NCBI GenBank assembly: GCA_963082975.1
Contig: OY720345.1
Span: 34,744,611-34,808,610 of the forward strand
Length of the DNA stretch: 64,000 nt
Direction of reading: 5' to 3'
From: Labia minor
Taxonomy: Eukaryota > Arthropoda > Insecta > Dermaptera > Spongiphoridae
Shown piece after piece: positions 4,029 to 58,630 of the stretch. The notes beneath the pieces are model-generated. The model was given only the letters and a program-made list of their open reading frames with translations, did no database searches and was not told the origin of the DNA. Made by a program: the position numbers and the translations under genes. Numbering within the stretch: position 1 is the stretch's first letter; each line of letters starts with the position of its first letter.

Positions 4029-4748
4029 TTAATCATATACGATGGATGATTTCTTTAAAGGACAAATGGCAGTAATTATGAATGATTCAATGGTATTGAT
4101 CAATAATGTCGGCAAATATAATGAAACAAATTTGTTCTTTTTCTTAAATAATTGATTAGTTAAAAAATGTTCATCGAAATCAAATCCTTTAATAGTAAAC
4201 TTTTTTAAATTTGGAAAAAAATAATTAATAGCCTCTAGAATATTATGATCAATTATAAAATCATCACATATAACAATTTCTTCTAGGTTATTGAAAGGAG
4301 GACAAGTTGGCAATTTATCTTCTTTTATAAGAATTGCTAATTTTTCTTTAATATCAAATATTTTATTAGCTGTATATAAGGGGAATGGTCGCATAATGAT
4401 TTTTTTTAATCGTGGCATAGGAAAATGTGTTAAAAACTTCATTAAAAAGTCATAACTATAGTCACATATATTAAGAGTTTCTATTAAAAAATAGAATTGT
4501 TCTAAAAATTGTTGAGCATACAAGGAATCCGGACCGTCGAATATTATTCCAGTTGATGAAGAGATAATTACAGAATTGACAATCACATCGTAATAATATG
4601 GATCTTCACTAAAAACAAGCAATTGTTCTATTGTTGAAAATTTCAGAATATTACCCACTAATTCTAGGGGTAATCTCATCATATGTTCACCTAATTCTAG
4701 ATCACAATGTTTTGTTTTTTCATCTTTTTGGATGGCATGATTATACAA
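4029..4748 (-). pseudogene. Truncated F-box/LRR paralogue
   Basis: This is the N-terminal half of the F-box gene at 6934-8241, with the same order of blocks: CDLELGEHMMRLP, the F-box-like VGNILKFSTIEQLLVFSED, then leucine-rich segments ending at FKKKNKFVSLYLPTLLI. Homology stops near 4062, so the C-terminal 200 or so residues with most leucine-rich repeats are missing and the last 15 codons are unrelated sequence. The A-run after the paralogue's start ATG is one base shorter here. That ATG is therefore out of frame and stops within nine codons, and the extended frame would begin with a non-ATG codon. An internal MM (HMMRLP) could still act as a start. It is most likely a pseudogene from duplication. 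Confidence 0.7.
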
Positions 4749-6933: not shown

Positions 6934-8241
6934 CTATGTAATCTTTAACTTATATGATTCGATATTACTTGCACAAGGTAACAATGTTTTGCAAACCCGA
7001 ACTTCATTTCTATTTGTTACCATTTCATCTAAAGTTGTATTAAGATTCAATGAAAGAAGGCGCAAGTATTTTTTAATTTCTTCAAAACTAACTTGTGTTT
7101 TATTCAATGGAAGAACTAATTGATATAATTTTTTACATTTAAAAATGTATTGAAGTACTTCATTAGATATTTTTCCACATTGAAACAATGATAAAATATT
7201 TAATTTTTTTATTTTATGGATATCTTCTAGATCACTATTTATTAATTCTCCACAGGATTCTAATCGGAGATCCGTTAAATTTTCAAACTGATTAAGCAAT
7301 TTCAAGGCATTTTTATGGATATCATGGCAATATGCTATTTTCAAATTTGTTAAAGGTAAACTTTTTTCAAGAAACACTTTAACTAATTGTTCTGTAAAGG
7401 ATCCCATATCTATTAACGATAGTTTTTTCAATTTACCTAATGGTGCCATTTTAAAATATCTCCTGAGAATTTCTTCAGGGCCATAGTATATAATCTGCAG
7501 GTATTCTAAATGTTCTAATTTAGACAAATAAGATGGCCAGGTTGTATTAGTAGGATCAATCAGGATATTTAATTGTCTTAAATTAGAGAAGTTAACTATT
7601 GTTTCCAATGACTCAATTCTTGTGATCAATAATGTCGGCAAACATAATGAAACAAATTTGTTCTTTTTCTTAAATAATTGATTAGTTAAAAAATGTTCAT
7701 CGATAAATTGATTTTCAATAGTAAACTTTTTTAAATTTGGAAAAAAATAATTAATAGCCTCTAGAAAAACATCATCAATTATTGAATAATCACATATAAC
7801 AATTTCTTCTACATTATTGAATGTAGAACAAGTTGGCAATTTACCATCTTTTATAAGACTTGCAAATTTTTCTTTAATATCATCTATTTGATCTTTATAA
7901 ATGCATAATATTTCAATAATGATTTTTTTTAATCGTGGCATTGAAAAATGCATTATAGACTTCATTAAAAATTCATAATTATACTCACATACATTAAGAG
8001 TTTCTATTAAAAAATAGAATTTTTCAAAAAAGTTTTGATGCCAATCTGTTTCGCCGAATATTATTCCATTTGCTGAAGAGATAATCCCAGGACGGACAAT
8101 CACATCGTAATAATATGCATCTTCACTAAAAACAAGCATTTGTTCCCTTGTTGAATATTTCAGAATATTACCCACTACTTCTGGGGGTAATCTCATCATA
8201 TGTTCGCCTAATTCTAGATCACAATATTTTGTTTTTTTCAT
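6934..8241 (-). CDS. F-box / leucine-rich repeat protein
   Basis: The intact single-exon frame gives 435 aa from the ATG at 8241. The frame stays open upstream to 8298, but only from a non-ATG codon, and the paralogue's conserved CCAAAAAGATGAAAAAA context supports this ATG. Residues about 14-40 (MRLPPEVVGNILKYSTREQM) fit the F-box consensus LP.E....I......, which recruits Skp1 of an SCF ubiquitin ligase. The rest is leucine-rich, with repeats such as LPLTNLKIAYCHDI, LTDLRLESCGEL and LNILSLFQCGKIS (about residues 300-380), the substrate-binding part of FBXL-type proteins. It probably selects a substrate for ubiquitination; the substrate is unknown. The F-box is recognised by pattern only. It sits in a duplicated segment beside a broken copy, which suits the rapid turnover of F-box families. 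Confidence 0.7.
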   Translation of the reverse strand: MKKTKYCDLELGEHMMRLPPEVVGNILKYSTREQMLVFSEDAYYYDVIVRPGIISSANGIIFGETDWHQNFFEKFYFLIETLNVCEYNYEFLMKSIMHFSMPRLKKIIIEILCIYKDQIDDIKEKFASLIKDGKLPTCSTFNNVEEIVICDYSIIDDVFLEAINYFFPNLKKFTIENQFIDEHFLTNQLFKKKNKFVSLCLPTLLITRIESLETIVNFSNLRQLNILIDPTNTTWPSYLSKLEHLEYLQIIYYGPEEILRRYFKMAPLGKLKKLSLIDMGSFTEQLVKVFLEKSLPLTNLKIAYCHDIHKNALKLLNQFENLTDLRLESCGELINSDLEDIHKIKKLNILSLFQCGKISNEVLQYIFKCKKLYQLVLPLNKTQVSFEEIKKYLRLLSLNLNTTLDEMVTNRNEVRVCKTLLPCASNIESYKLKIT

Positions 8242-9762
8242 CTTTTTGGACAGTATGGTTATAAAATGAAAAAAAAAAAACAAAATCAAAAAATACACTC
8301 ACACTTAACGATGGTTAGTTAAAATGTGTGTTGCACTTGGTGAACAGCAATGAATTGCAGACTGAAAACATAGGGAGCATACTAAATCGAAAAAATGTGT
8401 GTGAAAACAGGCAACCAATCAGAAGACCCTTTTTAGAAGTGTTAGGCTCGATCTTATTGGCTACTTTCCATCACTATACATTTTTGCTTTTTTTTCCCTA
8501 TCAATTGAATTTTGTTTACAAGAAAAGATGAAAGAAGAAAACAACAAAAGAACAAAAAGGACTTTCCAACCTTTAATAAGTTGACCTGTGGCCAGGTCCG
8601 AACCGACCGACGGTTTGAAATAAATTAATTTCCAGCTACAGAAACAATTTCAAATAATTTTAATATATCTATTAATGTAAAAACAGATATGGATAGAACA
8701 TAAATATTTTTAATTTTATTTTATTTATAATATATAGCTGAAGTAGCCGGCGTTGTCGGCGTTACCCGAGGCTGTGACGTCATATAATTTTAAATTAAGA
8801 AAAACATAATGAAGATGATTTTTCCCGAGGATAAAACCAATACATTCGTGGTGATATGTAAAAAAATCTCCTTATGTGAAATTTGGTGCGAAAATAACCC
8901 TTCCATTCTTATCGTCGATCGCTAATACTACCACTTCCGGTTTCCGGATTTGCACCAAAAGTTGATCAATTCATTCCACTGATGCATTAAGTAAATATAC
9001 CAAATTTCATCAAAATCCGTTAAGCCGTTCAGGCTGTACACATCTATACGGACGGACAGACGGACGGACAGACATCATGCTAAAAATACTTTTTTCTGTT
9101 AAGAAAATTCATGATTCGTGGAGATATGTAAAAATCTCCACATGTGAAATTTGGTGTGAAAACAATACCTCCCTTACTATCGTCGGTCGGTAAAAATATA
9201 TAATACAGCTATCAATTGTCCAATGTTCTAAGAAAACTCATTCAATGGTCCTATCTATTAAAAATATTCTTAATTAATTAAATTCTTACTAACTGTTCGA
9301 GTTTCTGATTAAGTAAATCTTACTTTAAATTTACTGAACATAGGGCTTACTTATTTGATTAATATTACAAATTCAATGGTTCTATCTATTAAAAATGTTT
9401 TTTTATGATCTCTATATTCAACTTATTTTTAAATTATTTTTTGATAAGATGGACAATTCACAAACAAAAACAAATTGCTAAAAATACCGAATTGTTCTTT
9501 ACCTACCAGCGATATGCAATATATAAAAATTGTTTAATTCTAATACTGATTTAAAAAGATATTTAATTGTCTAGATTTGTATCAATATAACTTTGTAGTT
9601 ACAAAATAGTAATTATAGAGGTAAAAACTATATTGTATCTACAATATTCTATTGCACACTAATTTAATTATCTAATTGGTCACAGTTAAATAATTAGAAA
9701 CACAATTTATTATTTATTCAAGTATTAAATCCTTATATTATCATAAGATATCTATATAGGTA
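7610..9762. repeat. Segmental duplication, copy B
   Basis: Second copy of the segment at 4062-5613, in the same orientation. It is longer because a complete HINE1 element (8578-9191) has been inserted between CCAACCTTTA and AAAATATATA. It ends at TATCTATATAGGTA, exactly where the G-run element at 9763 starts, so the insertion either marks or obscures the duplication boundary. Confidence 0.75.
8578..9191 (+). mobile_element. HINE1 repeat, complete copy
   Basis: About 614 bp. The left end has hairpin GACCT-GTGGCC-AGGTC and then CCGACCGACGG. The right end is ACTATCGTCGGTCGG, so CCGACCGACG and CGTCGGTCGG form a subterminal inverted repeat. Between them are an AT-rich part, the phrase ATCAAAATCCGTTAAGCCGT and a GGAC/AGAC tetranucleotide array. 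Comparison with the empty site in copy A leaves TAA on both sides, a 3-bp (or TA plus A) duplication. This architecture matches Helentron-associated non-autonomous elements; the class is inferred, the ends are observed. Confidence 0.75.
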
Positions 9763-16979: not shown

Positions 16980-18055
16980 GTGATAAACGGACATCAGAGA
17001 ATCAGAGGGCAACTTCTTCTCTTCCTAGTCGATAACGTGGCCCTAATACTTCCATGTCCCCTCCGCTCGAATTTCGCGAGTCAAGTCGATGCCGAGCACT
17101 CGCTGCCGCCGTCTGAAGGTCAGTACCCAAGCCAACCTGTCCATCTGGCCGGTGTTCTGCCCCGTCTCCGTGATCCTTCCATCCTTCCCTGAATCACGGT
17201 CTTTTCAAGGCCCGAACTGGAGAGAGTGAGGTGACCAAAATAACTAACCACCCTTCCAAGTCCCTCGCTAGAGAGGCGGTGTTTCGCGCGGACCTCTCTG
17301 AGTATATAGTTATTGGTCCTATGCGCCGTCCTCCAACACCACAGTTCAAAAGCGTCGATCTTCCTTCGGATGTTCTGCTTCAGGGTCCAGGTCTCTGACG
17401 CGTAAAGCACAATAGGAAAGATCATCGTGGTGACAATTAGTTTTTTTGTTTCAATGGTTAAGTTTTTGGTTTTCCATTTTTTTTTTCAGTTTTTCCATCG
17501 ATGTTCTTCCCATTTGGATACGCCGAACGACCTCAACATCACAGCCACCCCCGTTTTCAGCCATGGACCCCAGATAAACAAAACGGCTCATCACCTGATA
17601 GCCCGCAACATAATTAGTTTTTTTTGTTTCAATGGTTAAGTTGTTGGTTTTCCATTTTTTTTTTCAGTTTTTCCATCGATGTTCTTCTCATTTGGATACG
17701 CCGAATGACCTCAACATCACAGCCACCCCCGTTTTCAGCCATGGATCCCAGATAAACAAAACGGCTCATCACCTGATAGCCCGCAACATACAAGGACTCC
17801 GGTTTGTTGCCGCAATTACGGTCCTCAATAATTATCTTTGTTTTAGACTTATTAACGAGGGGGTCGTATTCTTCACTCACCTTCTCAAGCTTGCAGAGAA
17901 GGCGAGTCATTTCCTCCTCCGATCCCGCCAAGAGAGTTGTATCATCTGCGTATCTCAGATCAGAGATCCTTACGCCCCTCCGAGATGCCACCATCCTCCA
18001 AGACCTTTCTCATGACATACTTCCAGTAGATATTAAAAAGGATGGGGGACAAAAT
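16980..18055 (-). pseudogene. RTE-like LINE, reverse transcriptase 3' half
   Basis: Read on the minus strand: ILSPILFNIYWKYVMRK (about 18040-17990), then ISDLRYADDTTLLAGSEEEM with the YADD catalytic motif (17960 region), VAGYQVMSRFVYLGS, MEKLKKK, then LYASETWTLKQNIRRKIDAF, ELWCWRTAHRT and VVSYFGHLTLSSSGLEKTVI (17425-17120). This is the usual order in the C-terminal half of RTE-type LINE proteins. An in-frame TGA interrupts RQG*ILSP, a frameshift follows, and about 178 bp is tandemly duplicated between 17440 and 17796. It is dead. The upstream part is replaced by a mariner remnant. Confidence 0.8.
17440..17796. repeat. 178-bp tandem duplication inside the LINE
   Basis: The stretch starting TTTCAATGGTTAAG at 17450 recurs at 17628 with only a few differences. 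Each copy includes CCCGTTTTCAGCCATGGA and CATCACCTGATAGCCCGCAA. The duplication spans the YLGS to KLKKK part of the relic. Confidence 0.75.
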
Positions 18056-18330: not shown

Positions 18331-18967
18331 CGCGTTTGAGATCGTATTCCTTTTTTTTTAAATAAAAAATCGAAGAACACACAAAAACGTGACTAACTTT
18401 TTCAGTTGTTAAAAACAAACTACTAATCCTAAATGGCTGATAATGTCACCATATGAGGAAACATATTTGTACCAACATAACAAAAAAAAATATTTCGATA
18501 ATCAATTGTATACAGCCCGAGAAAATTCAAAATTCCCCTTTTTAAAGATCTCTATTGTGTGTATTATACAAAAATATTCCTCCAATTAACTGGATTAAAA
18601 TAAGAATAATTTAGACTGTTTAGATTTTATATTCGTTAAACATATATCAGATTCAATAATCTATTCAAAATGAAACATCTTCTTAAGGTCGTTTATTGAT
18701 TTTCATATATAAATTAAAAATTTAATTCAATTTGGACTAAAAATAACAGAGTTCTAATCATTTAATTAAGAATGGGAACACGGAACTGGGCCCCACTGGG
18801 CAATGCGTGTAAGCGATATAAGCCGAACTGTCGGTCATCAAACTTCTGGGGATAAAAAGAAAACTTAATAAAATTATTTTAGTCCTAATTTCTAAATAAA
18901 AATATAAGTAAATTGCTTAATAAAACAATTTGCTGTAAATACAATCATTAAAAAATATAAATATAAA
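18331..18967. other. AT-rich spacer left of the LTR element
   Basis: No motif recognised. The last four bases, TAAA (18964-18967), match the four bases after the right LTR. Confidence 0.4.
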
Positions 18968-19503
18968 TGTGGGAATGGAGCCTTTTGGCTCATCACCGTC
19001 CGAATCATCAAAAGCCTGGCACATCTTACTGCCTCAGGGTCGGCCATTCTCAACCACAATATCATCGGAGTTGGTGCTTCCTCTCAACGCCGCTCCAAGC
19101 AGCGAGCGCCCCAGACGCCGTCGCCGCCTCCCCACCATGAGCTACCATCACCGTCGCCGCCATTCTCCCACTCCACGCCACCGACCAATAGCAACCGAGT
19201 TCCAGCTGTTTGGACTTCCTTTTAAAAGGGACACCGGCACGATTCGAGTTTAGTTTATAGTTGTACAGTTTCAGTTTAAGTTTAAGTTTATCAGTTTTAC
19301 AGTCGACAGTTTACAGTCAAGAGTTTATTCAGTCTTTTGTACATCGCCAGAAGTATTCAAGAAACGAAGAAGTTACGATTTCATTTATTTTTACACTATT
19401 TTTATCTTGTTCATCTTTATTCAATAAAACGATATTTTTGCAACCATTTAAACAAAACAGATATTTTTTGCTAAACAACCCCTAGACAACGAAATTCCCT
19501 ACA
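18968..19503 (+). repeat. 5' LTR, 536 bp
   Basis: Starts TGTGGGAATGG and ends CCCTACA. The first half is GC-rich against an AT-rich genome. A TATA-like TTTTAAAA lies at 19220-19227 and a poly(A) signal AATAAA at 19423-19428, giving a plausible U3-R-U5 order with transcription starting after about 19250. Confidence 0.85.
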
Positions 19504-19506
19504 AAT

Positions 19507-19523
19507 TGGAGGCTCAGTCCGTG
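19507..19523 (+). promoter_or_regulatory. Candidate primer-binding site
   Basis: TGGAGGCTCAGTCCGTG begins 3 bases after the 5' LTR. It starts with TGG, the complement of the CCA end of a tRNA, as expected for tRNA-primed LTR elements. The matching tRNA was not identified. Confidence 0.5.
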
Positions 19524-19567
19524 ATTGAAAACAACTCGTTTATCGTTCGGGCAAAAGAAGATTCCTA

Positions 19568-19830
19568 GACTTATTCACTCTCAAGATTTTATGTGAATAA
19601 TCTTCAAGAAAAGATACACGATTCAAGATTCAAGTTTTATTCACTTTCAAGATTTTTGTGAATAATTCTTACGAAAAAGATACAAGATTCAAGATTGAAG
19701 ATTTATTTACTCTCAAGATTTTTGTGAATAATTGTCAAGGAAAAGATACAAGATTTAAGATTGAAAACTTATTCACTTTCAAGATTTTTTTGTGAATAAT
19801 CAGCAAGAAAGAAAATACAAGATTTAATAC
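19568..19830 (+). repeat. Four ~68-bp tandem repeats in the leader
   Basis: Imperfect units built on TTATTCACTTTCAAGATTTT, GTGAATAAT and GATACAAGATTCAAGATT repeat four times between the LTR and the start codon. Within a unit, TTATTCAC and GTGAATAA can pair, so each unit may form a hairpin in RNA. Possible roles, such as packaging or translation control, are speculation. Confidence 0.7.
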
Positions 19831-19862
19831 AGTAAAGATTAAAGAAATAAAAATATATTAAG

Positions 19863-21560
19863 ATGATGAATTTGGTTTTTTTTCCAAAAATCGCAAAAAA
19901 CATCAATGAGGCCAAACCATATGAATTGAAAGGATTAAAAACGATAATAACGGGTGACGCAACATGCCGCCTCAGTAGAAAAACCCTACTCAACTTTGAA
20001 GGGTTCAACTTTGTTGAAGGTTCTGAGGAATACGAAAAGAAAAATGAAGAATTAAAGGAAAAACTTACCAGTAAGCAACTACGTCGAACATCTAATATAC
20101 TCAATCTTCCTGAGCAAGACAGCGACGAACTAATCAGAGGTAACATTCTATCTTGGTTATGTACACTGGACGAAGATGATGAAGAAGAAGAAAAAGAAGA
20201 GACTGATAAGAAAGAAGAGACTGAAAAGAAAGAATCTAATAAAAAAGAAGAGACTGATAAGAAAGAATCTGATAAAAAAGAAGAGACTGAAAAGAAAGAA
20301 TCTGATAAAAAAGAAGAGACTGAAAAGAAAGAATCTAAGAAAAAAGAAGAGACTGAAAAGAAAGAATCTAAGAAAAAAGAAGAGACTGAAAAGAAAGAAT
20401 CTAATAAAAAAGAAAAAACTCAAAAGAAAGAATCGGAGAAAATTAAAGAGACTGATAAGAAAGAATCTGATAAAAAAGAAGAGACTGAAAAGAAAGAATC
20501 TAATAAAAAAGAAAAAACTCAAAAGAAAGAATCGGAGAAAATAGAAGGGACTGATAAGAAAGAATCTGATAAAAAAGAAGAGACTGAAAAGAAAGAATCT
20601 AATAAAAAAGGAGAGACTGAAAAACAGGAAGTCAAAGAAGAAAAGAATGAAGATAAAGAATCTCTAACGACTGATAATGAAAAAAAGACCGAAAGTGAAG
20701 TTAATGAAGAGGATAAAGTAAATGACGATGAATCAATGGAAGTTGATAAGGATGAAAGCACTTCAGAAGATCGAAATAAAACAATTCGTGAAGAAGAGAT
20801 TGATCCCAATGATAAAATTTTTTATCTTGATGAAACAATGCCTGAAAGTGAAGATGGTGAGAAAGACAGTGAAGAAGATGACGTTACTAATTTAAAATTC
20901 GCCTGGAAAGTTTTAAAATTGGCAAAAGTGATTTATGAAAAACAAGCAAATGAAGGAAATAAAGAAACAAAATTAAATTTAGAAAATGTTTTTTTAAAAT
21001 TAGACGAAATTAAAGAAGAAAGTTCTAACGATAATGATAAAACACAAACTGCAAGTAAAGTTGAAACTGAAGATAGTGTTTTAAATAAAGAAAATGAAGA
21101 TTTTAATGTGGATTTAAATTTAGAAACAGGCATAAATGATTTATCCAAATCACAAGATATACTATTTTACGTGAAGAAAAAAATCGATAAATATCGAAAA
21201 ACGAAGGCGAAGTGGAGAGATAAGGAAAAGAAGATTAACGTATTCGAGGCCGAATACATCGCAGGACGGCCGAATGTGGGAATGGAGCCTTTTGGCTCAT
21301 CACCGTCCGAATCATCAAAAGCCTGGCACATCTTACTGCCTCAGGGTCGGCCATTCTCAACCACAATATCATCGGAGTTGGTGCTTCCTCTCAACGCCGC
21401 TCCAAGCAGCGAGCGCCCCAGACGCCGTCGCCGCCTCCCCACCATGAGCTACCATCACCGTCGCCGCCATTCTCCCACTCCACGCCACCGACCAATAGCA
21501 ACCGAGTTCCAGCTGTTTGGACTTCCTTTTAAAAGGGACACCGGCACGATTCGAGTTTAG
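19863..21560 (+). CDS. DEK-like / possible NASP-like chimeric protein in LTR element
   Basis: The ORF is 565 aa and starts at ATGATG. Residues 20-105 resemble the SAP-like domain of the chromatin protein DEK: NFEGFNFVEGSEEYEKKNEE, then LTSKQLRRTSNILNLPE and DELIRGNILSWL. Residues about 110-265 are 11-residue repeats (ETEKKESKKKE type), then acidic. Residues about 340-390 (NLKFAWKVLKLAKVIYEKQ, then NVFLKLDEIKEES) resemble the first TPR of the histone chaperone NASP; this match is weaker. Residues 471-565 are read from the 3' LTR and are rich in Arg, Ser and Pro. No gag zinc knuckle or pol motif is seen. A nuclear, chromatin-binding product is inferred. The frame is intact throughout. Confidence 0.7.
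   Translation: MMNLVFFPKIAKNINEAKPYELKGLKTIITGDATCRLSRKTLLNFEGFNFVEGSEEYEKKNEELKEKLTSKQLRRTSNILNLPEQDSDELIRGNILSWLCTLDEDDEEEEKEETDKKEETEKKESNKKEETDKKESDKKEETEKKESDKKEETEKKESKKKEETEKKESKKKEETEKKESNKKEKTQKKESEKIKETDKKESDKKEETEKKESNKKEKTQKKESEKIEGTDKKESDKKEETEKKESNKKGETEKQEVKEEKNEDKESLTTDNEKKTESEVNEEDKVNDDESMEVDKDESTSEDRNKTIREEEIDPNDKIFYLDETMPESEDGEKDSEEDDVTNLKFAWKVLKLAKVIYEKQANEGNKETKLNLENVFLKLDEIKEESSNDNDKTQTASKVETEDSVLNKENEDFNVDLNLETGINDLSKSQDILFYVKKKIDKYRKTKAKWRDKEKKINVFEAEYIAGRPNVGMEPFGSSPSESSKAWHILLPQGRPFSTTISSELVLPLNAAPSSERPRRRRRLPTMSYHHRRRHSPTPRHRPIATEFQLFGLPFKRDTGTIRV
20190..20660 (+). repeat. 33-bp coding minisatellite
   Basis: Units such as GAGACTGAAAAGAAAGAATC followed by TAATAAAAAAGAA repeat about 13 times in frame, giving the Lys/Glu-rich repeat of the DEK-like ORF. 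Because 33 is divisible by 3, copy-number change keeps the frame. The complementary frames also stay open, which is a by-product of the repeat. Confidence 0.85.
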
Positions 21561-21810
21561 TTTATAGTTGTACAGTTTCAGTTTAAGTTTAAGTTTATCA
21601 GTTTTACAGTCGACAGTTTACAGTCAAGAGTTTATTCAGTCTTTTGTACATCGCCAGAAGTATTCAAGAAACGAAGAAGTTACGATTTCATTTATTTTTA
21701 CACTATTTTTATCTTGTTCATCTTTATTCAATAAAACGATATTTTTGCAACCATTTAAACAAAACAGATATTTTTTGCTAAACAACCCCTAGACAACGAA
21801 ATTCCCTACA
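21275..21810 (+). repeat. 3' LTR, 536 bp
   Basis: Same length and, wherever compared, same sequence as 18968-19503. No clear polypurine tract precedes it; the bases before it are GCAGGACGGCCGAA. Followed by TAAA. Confidence 0.85.
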
Positions 21811-22727
21811 TAAATATAATATAGAAATTAAATAATTTGTTAGATCCACTGACGACTAACATATAACATTATATTTGTATTTAACACCTTTTTTAACTAA
21901 CCGACCATTTAGGATTTGTCGCCCACTAACATATGGCGACCATGGTTAACGTGGTTATTTTTTAGAAAATTATTTCAATGAATCTTCTTTATTAAAAAAT
22001 GTTTATTAATGCAATTCTTTAAATTATTAGGTCTTTAATAAAGAAGAAAAATAAAAAAAAAGGATTTTTATTATGAAAGGATTTAGTGAAATGCATTTAT
22101 ACGCGTAAATTTAATATTGTTTAAAACTTCTCTCTTAACTTTTTTTTTATCTTTTTGTCAGTTCTTCATTTCAACCTTTGGTTAAGGCGTGAAAAGGTCA
22201 GGATCAATCAATACTTTATTTAAAAATGTATGTTTCAAATCCCAAAAGACAAACTCACAAAAGCAAATCTTGATTTCACATCAAATATTTTTTTAATCAT
22301 TGAAATTATGCAACGAATTTATAATTTGTTTTTTTTAATATATTCATATTCAATTATTTTATAAAGTGAAATCGATTTTTTAAAATAATTTTCAGATGAG
22401 CTAGTTTAAAATTTAAGTAGTTTGTATTTTATAAAAAGAAATTATATAACTACGAAATTTAGAAATTGTTCCTTCCTCCTATTTACTAAATAATAAATTA
22501 AAAATTTATAAGAATGGCCAAAGTTTATTCACACAATTTACTTTCATTAAAATTGAAACTAAAGTATATTTAAAATTACTTAATGTGTAAAATCTAATCT
22601 AAAAACAAATTAATGTACTTTAAACTTAAATTAAACTAAAAAATATATGATAATAAGAAAATTTTTTCTATTGTACCCGCGGTGAAGTTTTAAATTGATT
22701 TATATATTATTTATTATTATTATTATT

Positions 22728-49526: not shown

Positions 49527-51386
49527 ATGGATCGTTGGCTACAAACTGGTTCAACACAGAAACGGAAAGAATCAGATGATGAGGCATCAACAGCAAACTC
49601 TACCAAGAAACGCAAAACTAGAAAATATTCGGATGATTATTTATCATTTGGATTTACTTATATTTGCAACAATGATGTGGAAAGACCAGTCTGCGTTCTA
49701 TGTCAGGAAAGTTTATCCAATGAAAGTATGAAACCTGCTAATCTCAGACGTCATTTACAAACAAAGCACAGCGAGCATGTTAGTAAGTCTATCGAATTTT
49801 TTAAAATGAAAAAAGAAGAACTTAATTCAAGTCAGAAATTGATGGTAAAGACGGGATCTGGTGGTATGAGTAAGAAAGCAGTAATGGCATCATATGAAGT
49901 AGCTCTACTTATTGCTAAAGCAGGAAAGCCGCATAATATAGCAGAGCAATTAATTCTTCCTGCTACAAAAGTAATTACAAATATAATGTTAGGAACTAAA
50001 GCAGCAAACGATATAAATTTGATTTCATTATCAAATGATACGGTTAAGAATAGGATTGAAGACATGTCATGTAATATAAAAGAAGAATTAATATCGAGAG
50101 TGCGCAAAAGTCACTATTACTCATTACAATTGGATGAAAGTACTGATGTCACTAATAATGCCAATTTGTTAGCTTTCATTAGATATGAGTTTGAAAATCA
50201 AATACAAGAAGATGTATTGTTTTGTGATTCACTACCTTCACGAACGACAGCTAATGACATATTTAACAGTTTGAATAATTTTATAACCGAAAATGAAATA
50301 GAGTGGCCAAAATGTGTTGGAATTTGCACTGATGGTGCTCGTGCAATGTCAGGTACAAGAACTGGATTGATTGCTCTTATTAAAAATGTTGCGCCTCAGG
50401 TTGTTTGGAATCATTGCTGCATTCACAGAGAATCATTAGCAGCCAAAAATATGTCACCAGATTTGAAAAGAACATTAGACGAAGTAGTTAAAATTGTCAA
50501 TTTCATTAAGGCTCGTCCACTTAATTCCAGAGTTTTTAAAATTTTGTGTGAGGAAATGGGTAGTCAACATACACATTTATTATTACATACAGATGTACGT
50601 TGGTTGTCCCGCGGGAAAGTACTCATTCGCCTTTTTGAGCTTCGAGATGAAATACGATTGTTTTTAATAGATGCGCATTTTGAACTGACCGAATGTTTCA
50701 ATGATTTTATCTGGTTAGCTAAGGTGGCTTACTTGACTGATATTTTTACAAAATTGAACGAACTTAATTTGAGCCTGCAAGGTACTGTTGTAAATATATT
50801 TAAAGTTGAAGATAAAATAGAAGCAATGATTAAAAAAATCGACTTGTGGTCGAAACGCATCCAGAACGGTGTATATGAGTCTTTTCCAACTCTCAATGAT
50901 TTCATAGAAAGCTCCAGTGAAAAATTGCTTAATCAAACGCGTCAATTATTTGTTGAACATTTAATTACTTTGAAAAGCAACTTCAGGAAGTATTTTTCTA
51001 CTCCTGATCCTTGCAATAACTGGATCAGAGATCCATTTAATATGGAAATTACAAATGCTAAACATTTATCTGCACCTGAACAAGATATTCTCGTGGAATT
51101 ATCATGTGATACAACTTATAAACTAAAATTTAACAAAACTGAATTGAGCAACTTTTGGTTACTTCTCAGGTCAGATTATCCTGCGCTTGCAAATAAAGCA
51201 CTTCAACACTTGATTCCATTCTGCACAACATATTTATGCGAACAAGCTTTTTCGGTACTATTTTATATTAAGTCTAAATATAGAAACAAATTAAATGTAG
51301 AGCCGGATCTTAGATTAAAAGTTTCCAATATTAAGCCAGATATTGAGATTCTTGTTTCAAGAAAACAACTGCATACATCTCATTAA
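49527..51386 (+). CDS. hAT transposase, ZBED5/FAM200-like
   Basis: Intact 619-aa frame. Residues 56-81 form a BED zinc finger (C56, C59, H76, H81 in VCVLCQ...LRRHLQTKH) for DNA binding; K/R-rich residues 26-34 could be a nuclear signal. The RNase H-like core shows QLDESTDVTN (Asp203), GICTDGARAMSG (Asp269), the hAT-specific insert with HCCIHRESLAAK, DVRWLSRGKV, and the C-terminal CEQAFSVLFYIKSKYRNKL, where Glu572 would be the third catalytic residue, within the hAT dimerisation region. Length and order fit the Buster/ZBED5 group. Starts at ATG 49527 (AAAATGG). The product would cut and paste elements with CAGTGGTTC-type ends and could mobilise the MITEs here. No disabling change was seen. Confidence 0.9.
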   Translation: MDRWLQTGSTQKRKESDDEASTANSTKKRKTRKYSDDYLSFGFTYICNNDVERPVCVLCQESLSNESMKPANLRRHLQTKHSEHVSKSIEFFKMKKEELNSSQKLMVKTGSGGMSKKAVMASYEVALLIAKAGKPHNIAEQLILPATKVITNIMLGTKAANDINLISLSNDTVKNRIEDMSCNIKEELISRVRKSHYYSLQLDESTDVTNNANLLAFIRYEFENQIQEDVLFCDSLPSRTTANDIFNSLNNFITENEIEWPKCVGICTDGARAMSGTRTGLIALIKNVAPQVVWNHCCIHRESLAAKNMSPDLKRTLDEVVKIVNFIKARPLNSRVFKILCEEMGSQHTHLLLHTDVRWLSRGKVLIRLFELRDEIRLFLIDAHFELTECFNDFIWLAKVAYLTDIFTKLNELNLSLQGTVVNIFKVEDKIEAMIKKIDLWSKRIQNGVYESFPTLNDFIESSSEKLLNQTRQLFVEHLITLKSNFRKYFSTPDPCNNWIRDPFNMEITNAKHLSAPEQDILVELSCDTTYKLKFNKTELSNFWLLLRSDYPALANKALQHLIPFCTTYLCEQAFSVLFYIKSKYRNKLNVEPDLRLKVSNIKPDIEILVSRKQLHTSH

Positions 51387-57349: not shown

Positions 57350-58630
57350 GGTTGGGGAAGAAGAAATCCATTATTTTTTCGGTAGATGACTGTAGTGATC
57401 GATATCTCGTAAATTATCGATCAAACAATTTCAAATTTATGCTCGTTGTCAAGGTAACAGTTCGCACTAAAAGAATTCGTTTGCAGTTTTTTGTTTTGTC
57501 CATTCAGTTCTGAGTTACACGCCGTTAAAGATGGAAGTCAACAAAGAGAAAATTCGGTACATTTTACAGTTTTTCTTTGATAAGGGCGAAAATGCAAGTC
57601 AGGCGGCTGAAAATGTGAATAGTGTTTATGGTCCCGATACTGTAACAGCTAATTACGCGCAATTTTGGTTTCGTCGATTCCGTTCGGGTATTTTTGACGT
57701 TAAGGATGCCCCTCGCACAGGCAGGCCCGTCGTCGAAAATGTCGACAAAGTCACTGAAATCATCGAAGTGGACCGGCATGTTAGTAGTCGTAGCGTCGCC
57801 CAGGAGTTAAAGATCGACCACAAAACAGTTTTAAACCATTTGCACAAAGCTGGGTTTAAAAAAAAGCTTGATGTTTGGGTGCCACACCAATTAACACCAA
57901 AAAACATGATGGATCGAATTTCCATCTGCGAAGCCTTGGCCAAACGTAATGAAATCAACCCATTTCTTAAACGGATGGTGACTGGGGATGAGAAATGGGT
58001 CACATACGAAAACATTATGCGAAAGCGATCGTGGTCAAAGCGCGGTGAAGCAGCTCAGACGGTGGCCAAACCGAGACTAACGGCCAGGAAGGTTCTCCTT
58101 TGCGTTTGGTGGGATTGGAAAGGAATCATTTATTATGAGTTGCTTCCATATGGCCAAACATTAAATTCAGACATCTATTGTCAACAACTGGACCGTCTGA
58201 AGCGAGCAATTGACCAGAAACGGCCAGAATTGGCCAACAGAAGAGGTGTCGTGTTCCATCAGGACAACGCCAGGCCACACACTTCTATAGTGACTCGTCA
58301 GAAACTCCGGGAGCTTGGTTGGGAAGTTTTGATGCATCCACCATACAGTCCGGACCTCGCACCAAGCGATTACCATCTTTTTCTTGCATTGCAAAACTTT
58401 TTTAGTGATAAGAAATTGGCATCAAGGGAAGAGTGTGAAAATCAATTGCTGGAGTTTTTCGCTAATAAGGACCAAGACTTTTATGAGAGAGGCATAATGA
58501 AGCTACCATTAAAATGGCAACAAATTATAGAACAAAATGGTGCATATTTGACCTAAATCGGACAATGCAAAACATGTTAAATAAAGTCTTGAAGTTCACG
58601 TAAAAATAATGGATTTCTTTTCCCCCAACC
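57350..58630 (+). mobile_element. Complete mariner element, 1281 bp
   Basis: Terminal inverted repeats (GGTTGGGGAAGAAGAAATCC on the left, GGTTGGGGGAAAAGAAATCC inward from the right; ~30 bp, few mismatches) lie between duplicated TA (57348-57349, 58631-58632). The interior holds one intact transposase and little else. Length is normal for mariner. Confidence 0.93.
57531..58556 (+). CDS. Mariner D34D transposase, intact
   Basis: The 341-aa frame is full length. Residues 1-110 carry two helix-turn-helix units (IRYILQFFFDKGENASQAAE; SRSVAQELKIDHKTVLNHLH) that bind the inverted repeats; WVPHQLT (116-122) is the mariner linker motif. The catalytic triad is Asp153 (VTGDEKW), Asp245 (VFHQDNARPH) and Asp280 (PPYSPDLAPSDYH), with exactly 34 residues between the last two. 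It resembles the cecropia/mellifera-type mariners by these motifs. Start at ATG 57531, 181 bp inside the left end. The enzyme would excise and reinsert the element at TA. No stop, shift or missing catalytic residue was found, so it may be active. Confidence 0.93.
   Translation: MEVNKEKIRYILQFFFDKGENASQAAENVNSVYGPDTVTANYAQFWFRRFRSGIFDVKDAPRTGRPVVENVDKVTEIIEVDRHVSSRSVAQELKIDHKTVLNHLHKAGFKKKLDVWVPHQLTPKNMMDRISICEALAKRNEINPFLKRMVTGDEKWVTYENIMRKRSWSKRGEAAQTVAKPRLTARKVLLCVWWDWKGIIYYELLPYGQTLNSDIYCQQLDRLKRAIDQKRPELANRRGVVFHQDNARPHTSIVTRQKLRELGWEVLMHPPYSPDLAPSDYHLFLALQNFFSDKKLASREECENQLLEFFANKDQDFYERGIMKLPLKWQQIIEQNGAYLT

Follow-up and report, generated by a model that had tools for sequence, protein, structure and literature searches.

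The window considered here is a stretch of 64,000 nucleotides from the genome of Labia minor (contig OY720345.1, labeled C2 in our searches), and positions 18968 to 21810 within it hold a compact retrotransposon bounded by long terminal repeats (LTRs). Its single open frame joins a domain resembling the SAP-like domain of DEK to sequence that appears to derive from the host gene for NASP. We hold it to be quite likely that this is a satellite, that is, helper-dependent, Ty3/gypsy retrotransposon, whose DEK-NASP frame would have arisen from a gag-pol ancestor through capture of NASP and internal deletion, and which would be moved by proteins like those of L039, an autonomous relative in the same genome. 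The parts of the element are as follows.

18964..18967, no strand: left copy of the target-site duplication, TAAA; other copies of the family have 4-bp duplications of their own
18968..19503, plus strand: 5' LTR of 536 bp, identical to the 3' LTR, with a TATA-like TTTTAAAAGG at 19220 and AATAAA at 19423
19504..19862, plus strand: leader with tandem repeats of about 66 bp, common to L039
19507..19526, plus strand: primer binding site, closest to tRNA-Pro and imperfect, with the same letters in the autonomous L039 and in L044
19863..21560, plus strand: open frame of 565 amino acids, from the ATG at 19863 to the stop at 21560, its last ~95 codons within the 3' LTR
19863..20180, plus strand: DEK SAP-like domain, corresponding to the N-terminus of the clade's Gag-Pol (PDB matches, shuffles, profile)
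20190..21011, plus strand: cassette apparently derived from host NASP, left bound approximate (PDB matches, alignment with the host gene)
20226..20621, plus strand: acidic/KE tract of 33-bp repeats, within the NASP-derived cassette and ahead of the TPR2 half
21012..21222, plus strand: tail to which no origin could be assigned, with related sequence in other elements of the genome
21223..21274, plus strand: end of pol or 3' untranslated stretch common to L039, here in another frame, which holds CAGGACGGCCGAA
21275..21810, plus strand: 3' LTR, identical to the 5' LTR
21811..21814, no strand: right copy of the target-site duplication, TAAA, from comparison of the flanks

A sequence-only reading of this DNA had described a young, non-autonomous element with identical 536-bp LTRs, TG/CA ends, TAAA flanks, a TGG primer site, one intact frame and no pol motifs, and this anatomy holds throughout. 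The LTRs at 18968-19503 and 21275-21810 agree at 536 of 536 bp, begin with TG, end with CA and have TAAA on both sides. The ends are correctly placed, because three window-type copies elsewhere have different flanks and their own 4-bp duplications (ATAT, TATA and ATAA). The TGG primer site lies at 19507. A comparison with 18 tRNA strings gave tRNA-Pro as its best match (over the first 20 bases, one is extra and two are mismatched; equal score in 0 of 5000 shuffles), and the tRNA-Pro string is printed in PMC1769482. A classical polypurine tract adjoining the 3' LTR was found neither in the window nor in the related elements L039, L040, L041, L042 and L044. A CAGGA..GGCCGA-like motif stands where such a tract would be expected and is kept across divergent families: CAGGACGGCCGAA (21262-21274) is the same in the window, L039, L044 and L042, with close versions in L040 and L041. 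As none of the six elements has a classical tract there, this motif is a probable plus-strand primer site. With regard to age, eight of the nine LTR pairs examined are identical (three 100% copies including that in the window, the C9 copy L007/L008, L039, L040, L041 and L044), and the sole exception is L042, whose pair aligns with gaps at 87.6% and lies among tandem repeats.

The element is not a one-off. The genome searched comprises 604 Mb in 71 contigs. Among the best 40 of 295 candidates scored for the LTR, six matches are 100% identical to the query, and these make up three elements. For the DEK part, 150 of 260 candidates were scored; the domain is at least 95% identical at no fewer than 58 places, two of the 58 with an internal stop, and in addition there are at least six matches in frames of 1398-1399 amino acids and many more distant ones, most within frames of several hundred amino acids. 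For the NASP part, 120 candidates were scored and at least 114 of them matched. Its piece is nearly full length (at least 133 of 142 residues) at no fewer than 74 places, with no stop inside any of these matches, and for 71 of the 74 the surrounding frame is 450 amino acids or longer, although a frame of that length may still be shortened, as in L021. Within the 64-kb window there is no second copy, and a search with the joined flanks for an empty site gave only short, weak matches. Four copies stand in a row on C5 (65615637-65623211) at intervals of exactly 2121 bp and may form an array produced by LTR recombination. Such regularity is what a segmental duplication or an assembly artefact might leave in place of a retrotransposon, an explanation that we regard as barely credible given the separate 4-bp duplications at different flanks, the primer binding site, the copies on many contigs and the lack of shared flanks in the four window-type copies examined.

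Before it reaches the LTR the frame stays open for 470 codons, while the longest frame among 1000 base shuffles has 139. A match to human DEK covers residues 14-99 (phmmer E=1.9e-4; the top three PDB matches are all DEK), which bears out the DEK similarity that had been noticed by eye, and 20814-21274 matches human and plant NASP (E=3.1e-5 to 7.9e-5; the top four PDB matches are all NASP). None of 5000 shuffles reaches either alignment score, and the cross comparisons, N-terminal part against NASP and C-terminal part against DEK, are at noise level. A profile of nine N-termini from the clade recovers three DEK entries in the PDB at E=6.3e-16 to 1.2e-14, with the best non-DEK entry at 0.56, and the homology extends across the whole domain. 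No Pfam model matches the DEK SAP-like domain, and in the window frame and its pieces Pfam gave no match to DEK_C, to either half or to any gag or pol domain. Three protein database searches with the element likewise returned no matches, where database size may hide weak ones. No exact match to an LTR word appeared in the viral or prokaryote collection, searches of the viral collection confirmed no relative for either half, and neither Rfam at its gathering threshold nor PHROGs gave a match. Single-sequence AlphaFold models of both halves are poor (mean pLDDT 44 and 42). The KE repeat units differ by 21 synonymous and 163 other substitutions, and constraint is not shown there. The end of the frame as a pol protein was considered and rejected, the 3' end of pol being read here in another frame.

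The sequence-only reading had taken the whole frame for captured host chromatin-gene sequence on the strength of its DEK-like part, and the second, NASP half had escaped it. The autonomous relatives place the DEK-like part differently. L039 carries one frame of 1398 amino acids that runs from a DEK-like domain through gag, CCHC, protease, reverse transcriptase, RNase H and integrase (Pfam for the gag-pol domains), between LTRs identical at 479 of 479 bp, and L040 represents a second complete family, with identical LTRs of 217 bp. The order gag, protease, reverse transcriptase, RNase H and integrase, present in both by Pfam, is that of Ty3/gypsy (Metaviridae) elements, and the window element lacks all of these domains. 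Its DEK-like domain is identical to that of L039 at 95 of 106 residues and to that of L040 at 36 of 105; further gag elements are only 29-44% identical in this domain. At the nucleotide level, window and L039 agree at 91% over 18968-20218 and at 87% over 21223-21810, and they have identical primer-site letters and the same motif ahead of the 3' LTR. These comparisons identify the DEK-like domain as the regular N-terminal part of gag-pol in a Ty3/gypsy clade.

A single transduction event, in which an otherwise unrelated LTR element picked up a host DEK gene, would account for the N-terminal match to DEK. It is nevertheless very improbable, as the same domain opens the gag-pol of L039 and L040 and the gag of the elements at 29-44% identity, and as synonymous sites are saturated in five of seven comparisons with more distant elements (nonsynonymous divergence, dN, 0.56-0.87). 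The DEK domain is thus old, and its origin from a host DEK gene, if there was one, must lie far back. For the most part it also looks constrained. Synonymous divergence (dS) and dN are 0.19 and 0.05 between window and L039, 0.17 and 0.07 against L044, and 0.07 and 0.08 against L051; dN/dS is about 0.26 against L039 and L043, and the corresponding ratio of differing sites within the subfamily (pN/pS) is 0.22.

The host gene captured in this lineage is accordingly NASP and not DEK. At C1:91119500-91121300 (1801 bp read) lies L085, a frame in which the acidic repeats of the cassette recur together with TPR motifs and a basic C-terminus (Pfam SHNi-TPR, E=3.5e-15, TPR_12 and TPR_2; TPR3 and TPR4 named by eye), which we take for the host NASP gene, the donor outside the element. 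The claim of captured chromatin-gene sequence therefore survives for the NASP piece and not for the DEK part, which is native to the gag-pol of L039 and L040. The same division applies to the possibility, also raised from the letters alone, that the frame is the normal gag of an autonomous LTR family: this describes the DEK-like domain, while the NASP piece is a host capture. Over 114 codons, window and L085 share 317 of 342 bases (dS 0.109, dN 0.070, ratio 0.65); for the NASP parts of L044, L043 and L053 the ratio to L085 is 0.80, 0.80 and 0.91. Over a longer acidic stretch, dS and dN to L085 are 0.061 and 0.053 for L048 and 0.063 and 0.065 for L044. Within the window subfamily, pN/pS is 0.78 among 13 distinct sequences (from 30 loci, three of which were dropped, two for lack of a clean segment and one for its different length). 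By these measures the NASP part appears nearly relaxed. Two further partial relatives lie at C2:14953233 (72%) and C9:40525126 (70% over residues 17-137).

The cassette consists of the NASP acidic tract and the half of TPR2 behind it; in NASP, the acidic tract interrupts TPR2 (PMC4082323). Beyond the end of TPR2 the element and the host gene are no longer homologous, and the cassette lacks TPR3, TPR4 and the capping helix, from which the H3 α3 site of NASP is built (PMC9122598). At the H3 αN site, served in human NASP by E177, W180 and D181 (PMC9122598), the tryptophan is retained, and two TPR2-helix glutamates of L085, counted as human positions 181 and 184, are lysines in the element. Lysine also occupies the E177 position in the host's own NASP and the D181 position in plant NASP, so that these changes need not mean that the element has lost the αN site. 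It is unlikely that the piece is a working H3 chaperone, because the parts of the α3 site are missing and the αN helix is changed.

DEK and NASP (PMC9122598) are both histone chaperones, and so striking a pair raises the possibility that the DEK-NASP protein is itself active, with a histone-binding fusion that tethers the cDNA to chromatin or disturbs histone supply or silencing at new insertions. The 71 of 74 long frames, the conservation of the DEK domain across divergent families, the retained tryptophan and the plant lysine at one of the changed positions all fit such a role. There is, however, a simpler account of the pair, in which the DEK domain was already in gag when NASP arrived, and the absent α3-site parts, the glutamate-to-lysine changes and the nearly neutral pattern of change in the NASP part also speak against it, so that we consider an active fusion rather unlikely, at about one chance in a few. 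It appears most likely instead that the product keeps a contact of the Gag N-terminus with chromatin or DNA and that the NASP part serves for the most part as filler, open and highly charged, through which the whole RNA stays translatable.

A separate question is whether translation is under selection at all. It could be argued that the frame is open only through the youth of the copies, in line with the eight identical LTR pairs of nine (L042 again excepted), the near-neutral NASP part and a DEK-domain rate of about 1 against L051. Yet the dS of about 0.1 to host NASP implies that several stop gains would be expected in the window frame if change were neutral. A simple mutation model puts them at 5.4 for 5% divergence (probability of none 0.4%) or 2.2 for 2% (11%), an argument that is only rough because the copies share history. 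The DEK domain is also constrained in most comparisons. The putative 5' untranslated region of 613 nucleotides contains a single ATG, an immediate ATG-TGA, and only 31 of 2000 dinucleotide shuffles have as few; the antisense strand is likewise poor in ATG (7 of 2000), and the count is therefore weak evidence for translation. Selection evidence is mixed overall, and we regard youth alone as a doubtful explanation, slightly less plausible than an active fusion. That the frame is kept while the DEK domain is mostly constrained and the NASP part nearly relaxed points to some remaining task of the Gag N-terminus, perhaps contact with chromatin.

Elements intermediate between L039 and the window type are present in the genome. 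In L043, L044 and L053 the DEK domain, gag, CCHC and protease are kept, and the region from reverse transcriptase to integrase is replaced in frame by the NASP cassette (L044 aligned to L039 with Pfam domains, L053 aligned to L044, L043 assigned by translation). L044 has LTRs of the window's type (95% identical), an LTR pair of its own identical at 530 of 530 bp and the primer-site letters of the window. In the window type the DEK domain is joined directly to the KE tract, and gag core and protease are also lost; the joint likely lies in GA-rich acidic tracts. The cassette recurs in a distant family, L048. Both L048 and L052, whose DEK domains are only ~30% identical, carry the NASP acidic tract; L048 has gag, CCHC and protease by Pfam. 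L044 and L048 have in common two internal deletions relative to L085 and a change of AKE to AKV, and L048 has parts of the window's tail (21012-21222). For these reasons we read the distribution as one NASP capture followed by passage between element families. Tail-like matches without the TPR2 half occur at ~30 or more other places, singly weak (E from 6e-4 up), and among these the NASP acidic tract was seen for L048 and L052.

The satellite origin can then be pictured as a series of steps. The ancestor would have been an autonomous element with a single gag-pol frame headed by the DEK SAP-like domain. By a template switch to NASP sequence, probably an mRNA that had been packaged into the same particle, reverse transcriptase, RNase H and integrase may then have given way in frame to the acidic tract and half of TPR2 from NASP, as still seen in L043, L044 and L053. 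Gag core and protease would have gone later, through an internal deletion with its ends in acidic, GA-rich tracts, which left the window element with its DEK-NASP frame. The LTR promoter would supply RNA that proteins of L039-like elements package, reverse transcribe and integrate. Movement in trans had been proposed from the letters alone, and it is probable in this form, with L039 as the probable helper type, because leader, primer-site letters and the CAGGACGGCCGAA motif are shared.

Several observations weigh against this origin or against the constraint that accompanies it. An autonomous relative is present in L039, but the window LTR is only ~86% identical to that of L039, which itself need not be the helper, and among the 40 LTR matches listed no LTR pair stands at full-length autonomous spacing. 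An intron-containing donor had been expected; a NASP donor exists in L085, but the match lies in one open frame of 707 amino acids, and for that reason the absence of introns cannot show an RNA template. A search with the tail (21012-21222) identified no source. Constraint on the DEK domain does not appear in each comparison (dN/dS ~0.4 against L044 and ~1.1 against L051), and the rates within the subfamily rest on five distinct sequences among 30 loci, with means of 1.4 synonymous and 1.2 other differences per pair. The neutral stop estimate presumes a mutation model and one lineage, and shortened copies exist (L021, 457 amino acids; L026, 370 amino acids).

Acute transforming retroviruses offer a parallel, with gag-onc fusions in which pol is lost, a host gene stands in frame behind gag and a helper is needed. 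The window element resembles them in pol loss, in an in-frame host fusion behind gag sequence and in its presumed need for a helper; it differs as a high-copy retrotransposon with a chromatin gene in place of an oncogene and, in the window type, without the gag core. Precedent for gene capture is set by maize Bs1, an LTR element holding segments of three host genes (PMC13317346, PMC5408686), and by mRNA retroposition through LTR elements, in which, according to the model, host mRNA is joined to element RNA by template switching (PMC5408686). Bs1 is likewise an LTR element with host gene sequence, but it is a plant element with different genes, whereas here several related families carry different inserts in place of pol. 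In contrast to mRNA retroposition as described, the chimera here became a multiplying family, and two divergent element families carry its cassette. The ant element PbTRIM (PMC3532108) and Helenus/Ajax (PMC10886601) are small non-autonomous LTR elements too, from which the window element differs by its long coding frame. A literature search on gene capture by LTR elements, on DEK or SAP domains in gag and on DEK or NASP in connection with retrotransposons, with most subscription papers outside its scope, found no such element described. LTR capture of host genes is usually met as a finished relic. Unlike Bs1, the present case has autonomous relative, intermediate, end product and host donor in one genome, most with identical LTR pairs, and because all stages coexist the steps of capture become readable and testable.

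The slot of pol appears to have been filled more than once, so that different insertions into it can be compared. L046:128-2221, from a further DEK-gag family, has a CIR1-like piece (corepressor CIR1, E=4.9e-12) between protease and the end of integrase, placed by eye. Long inserts resembling coiled coils by eye lie between gag/protease and the end of pol in L041:1389-3887 and L049:80-2335, and L042 carries an acidic insert; searches gave no identity for the inserts of L041, L042 and L049. On balance, and with less assurance than for the origin of the window element, we favor the view that a Ty3/gypsy clade with a long-standing DEK domain at the head of Gag repeatedly spawns helper-dependent families, with pol replaced in frame by NASP, CIR1, anonymous coiled coils or an acidic protein, and that such cassettes pass between divergent families by template switching, which would make the clade a lasting gene-capture platform in the animal germ line. 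The presence of a DEK domain inside Gag suggests, in addition, a testable route by which a retrotransposon could take hold of chromatin.

Elsewhere in the window, 57531-58556 holds an open mariner-type transposase frame of 341 amino acids (Transposase_1, E=4.4e-27, and HTH_48), and 49527-51386 holds a hAT/BED-type transposase-like frame of 619 amino acids (Dimer_Tnp_hAT, E=8.5e-4, below the curated cut-off). Two related frames on the minus strand, at 4029-4748 and 6934-8298, look F-box/LRR-like by eye, and a 172-bp direct duplication at 17441-17790 has a spacing of 178 bp and copies that are 98% identical.

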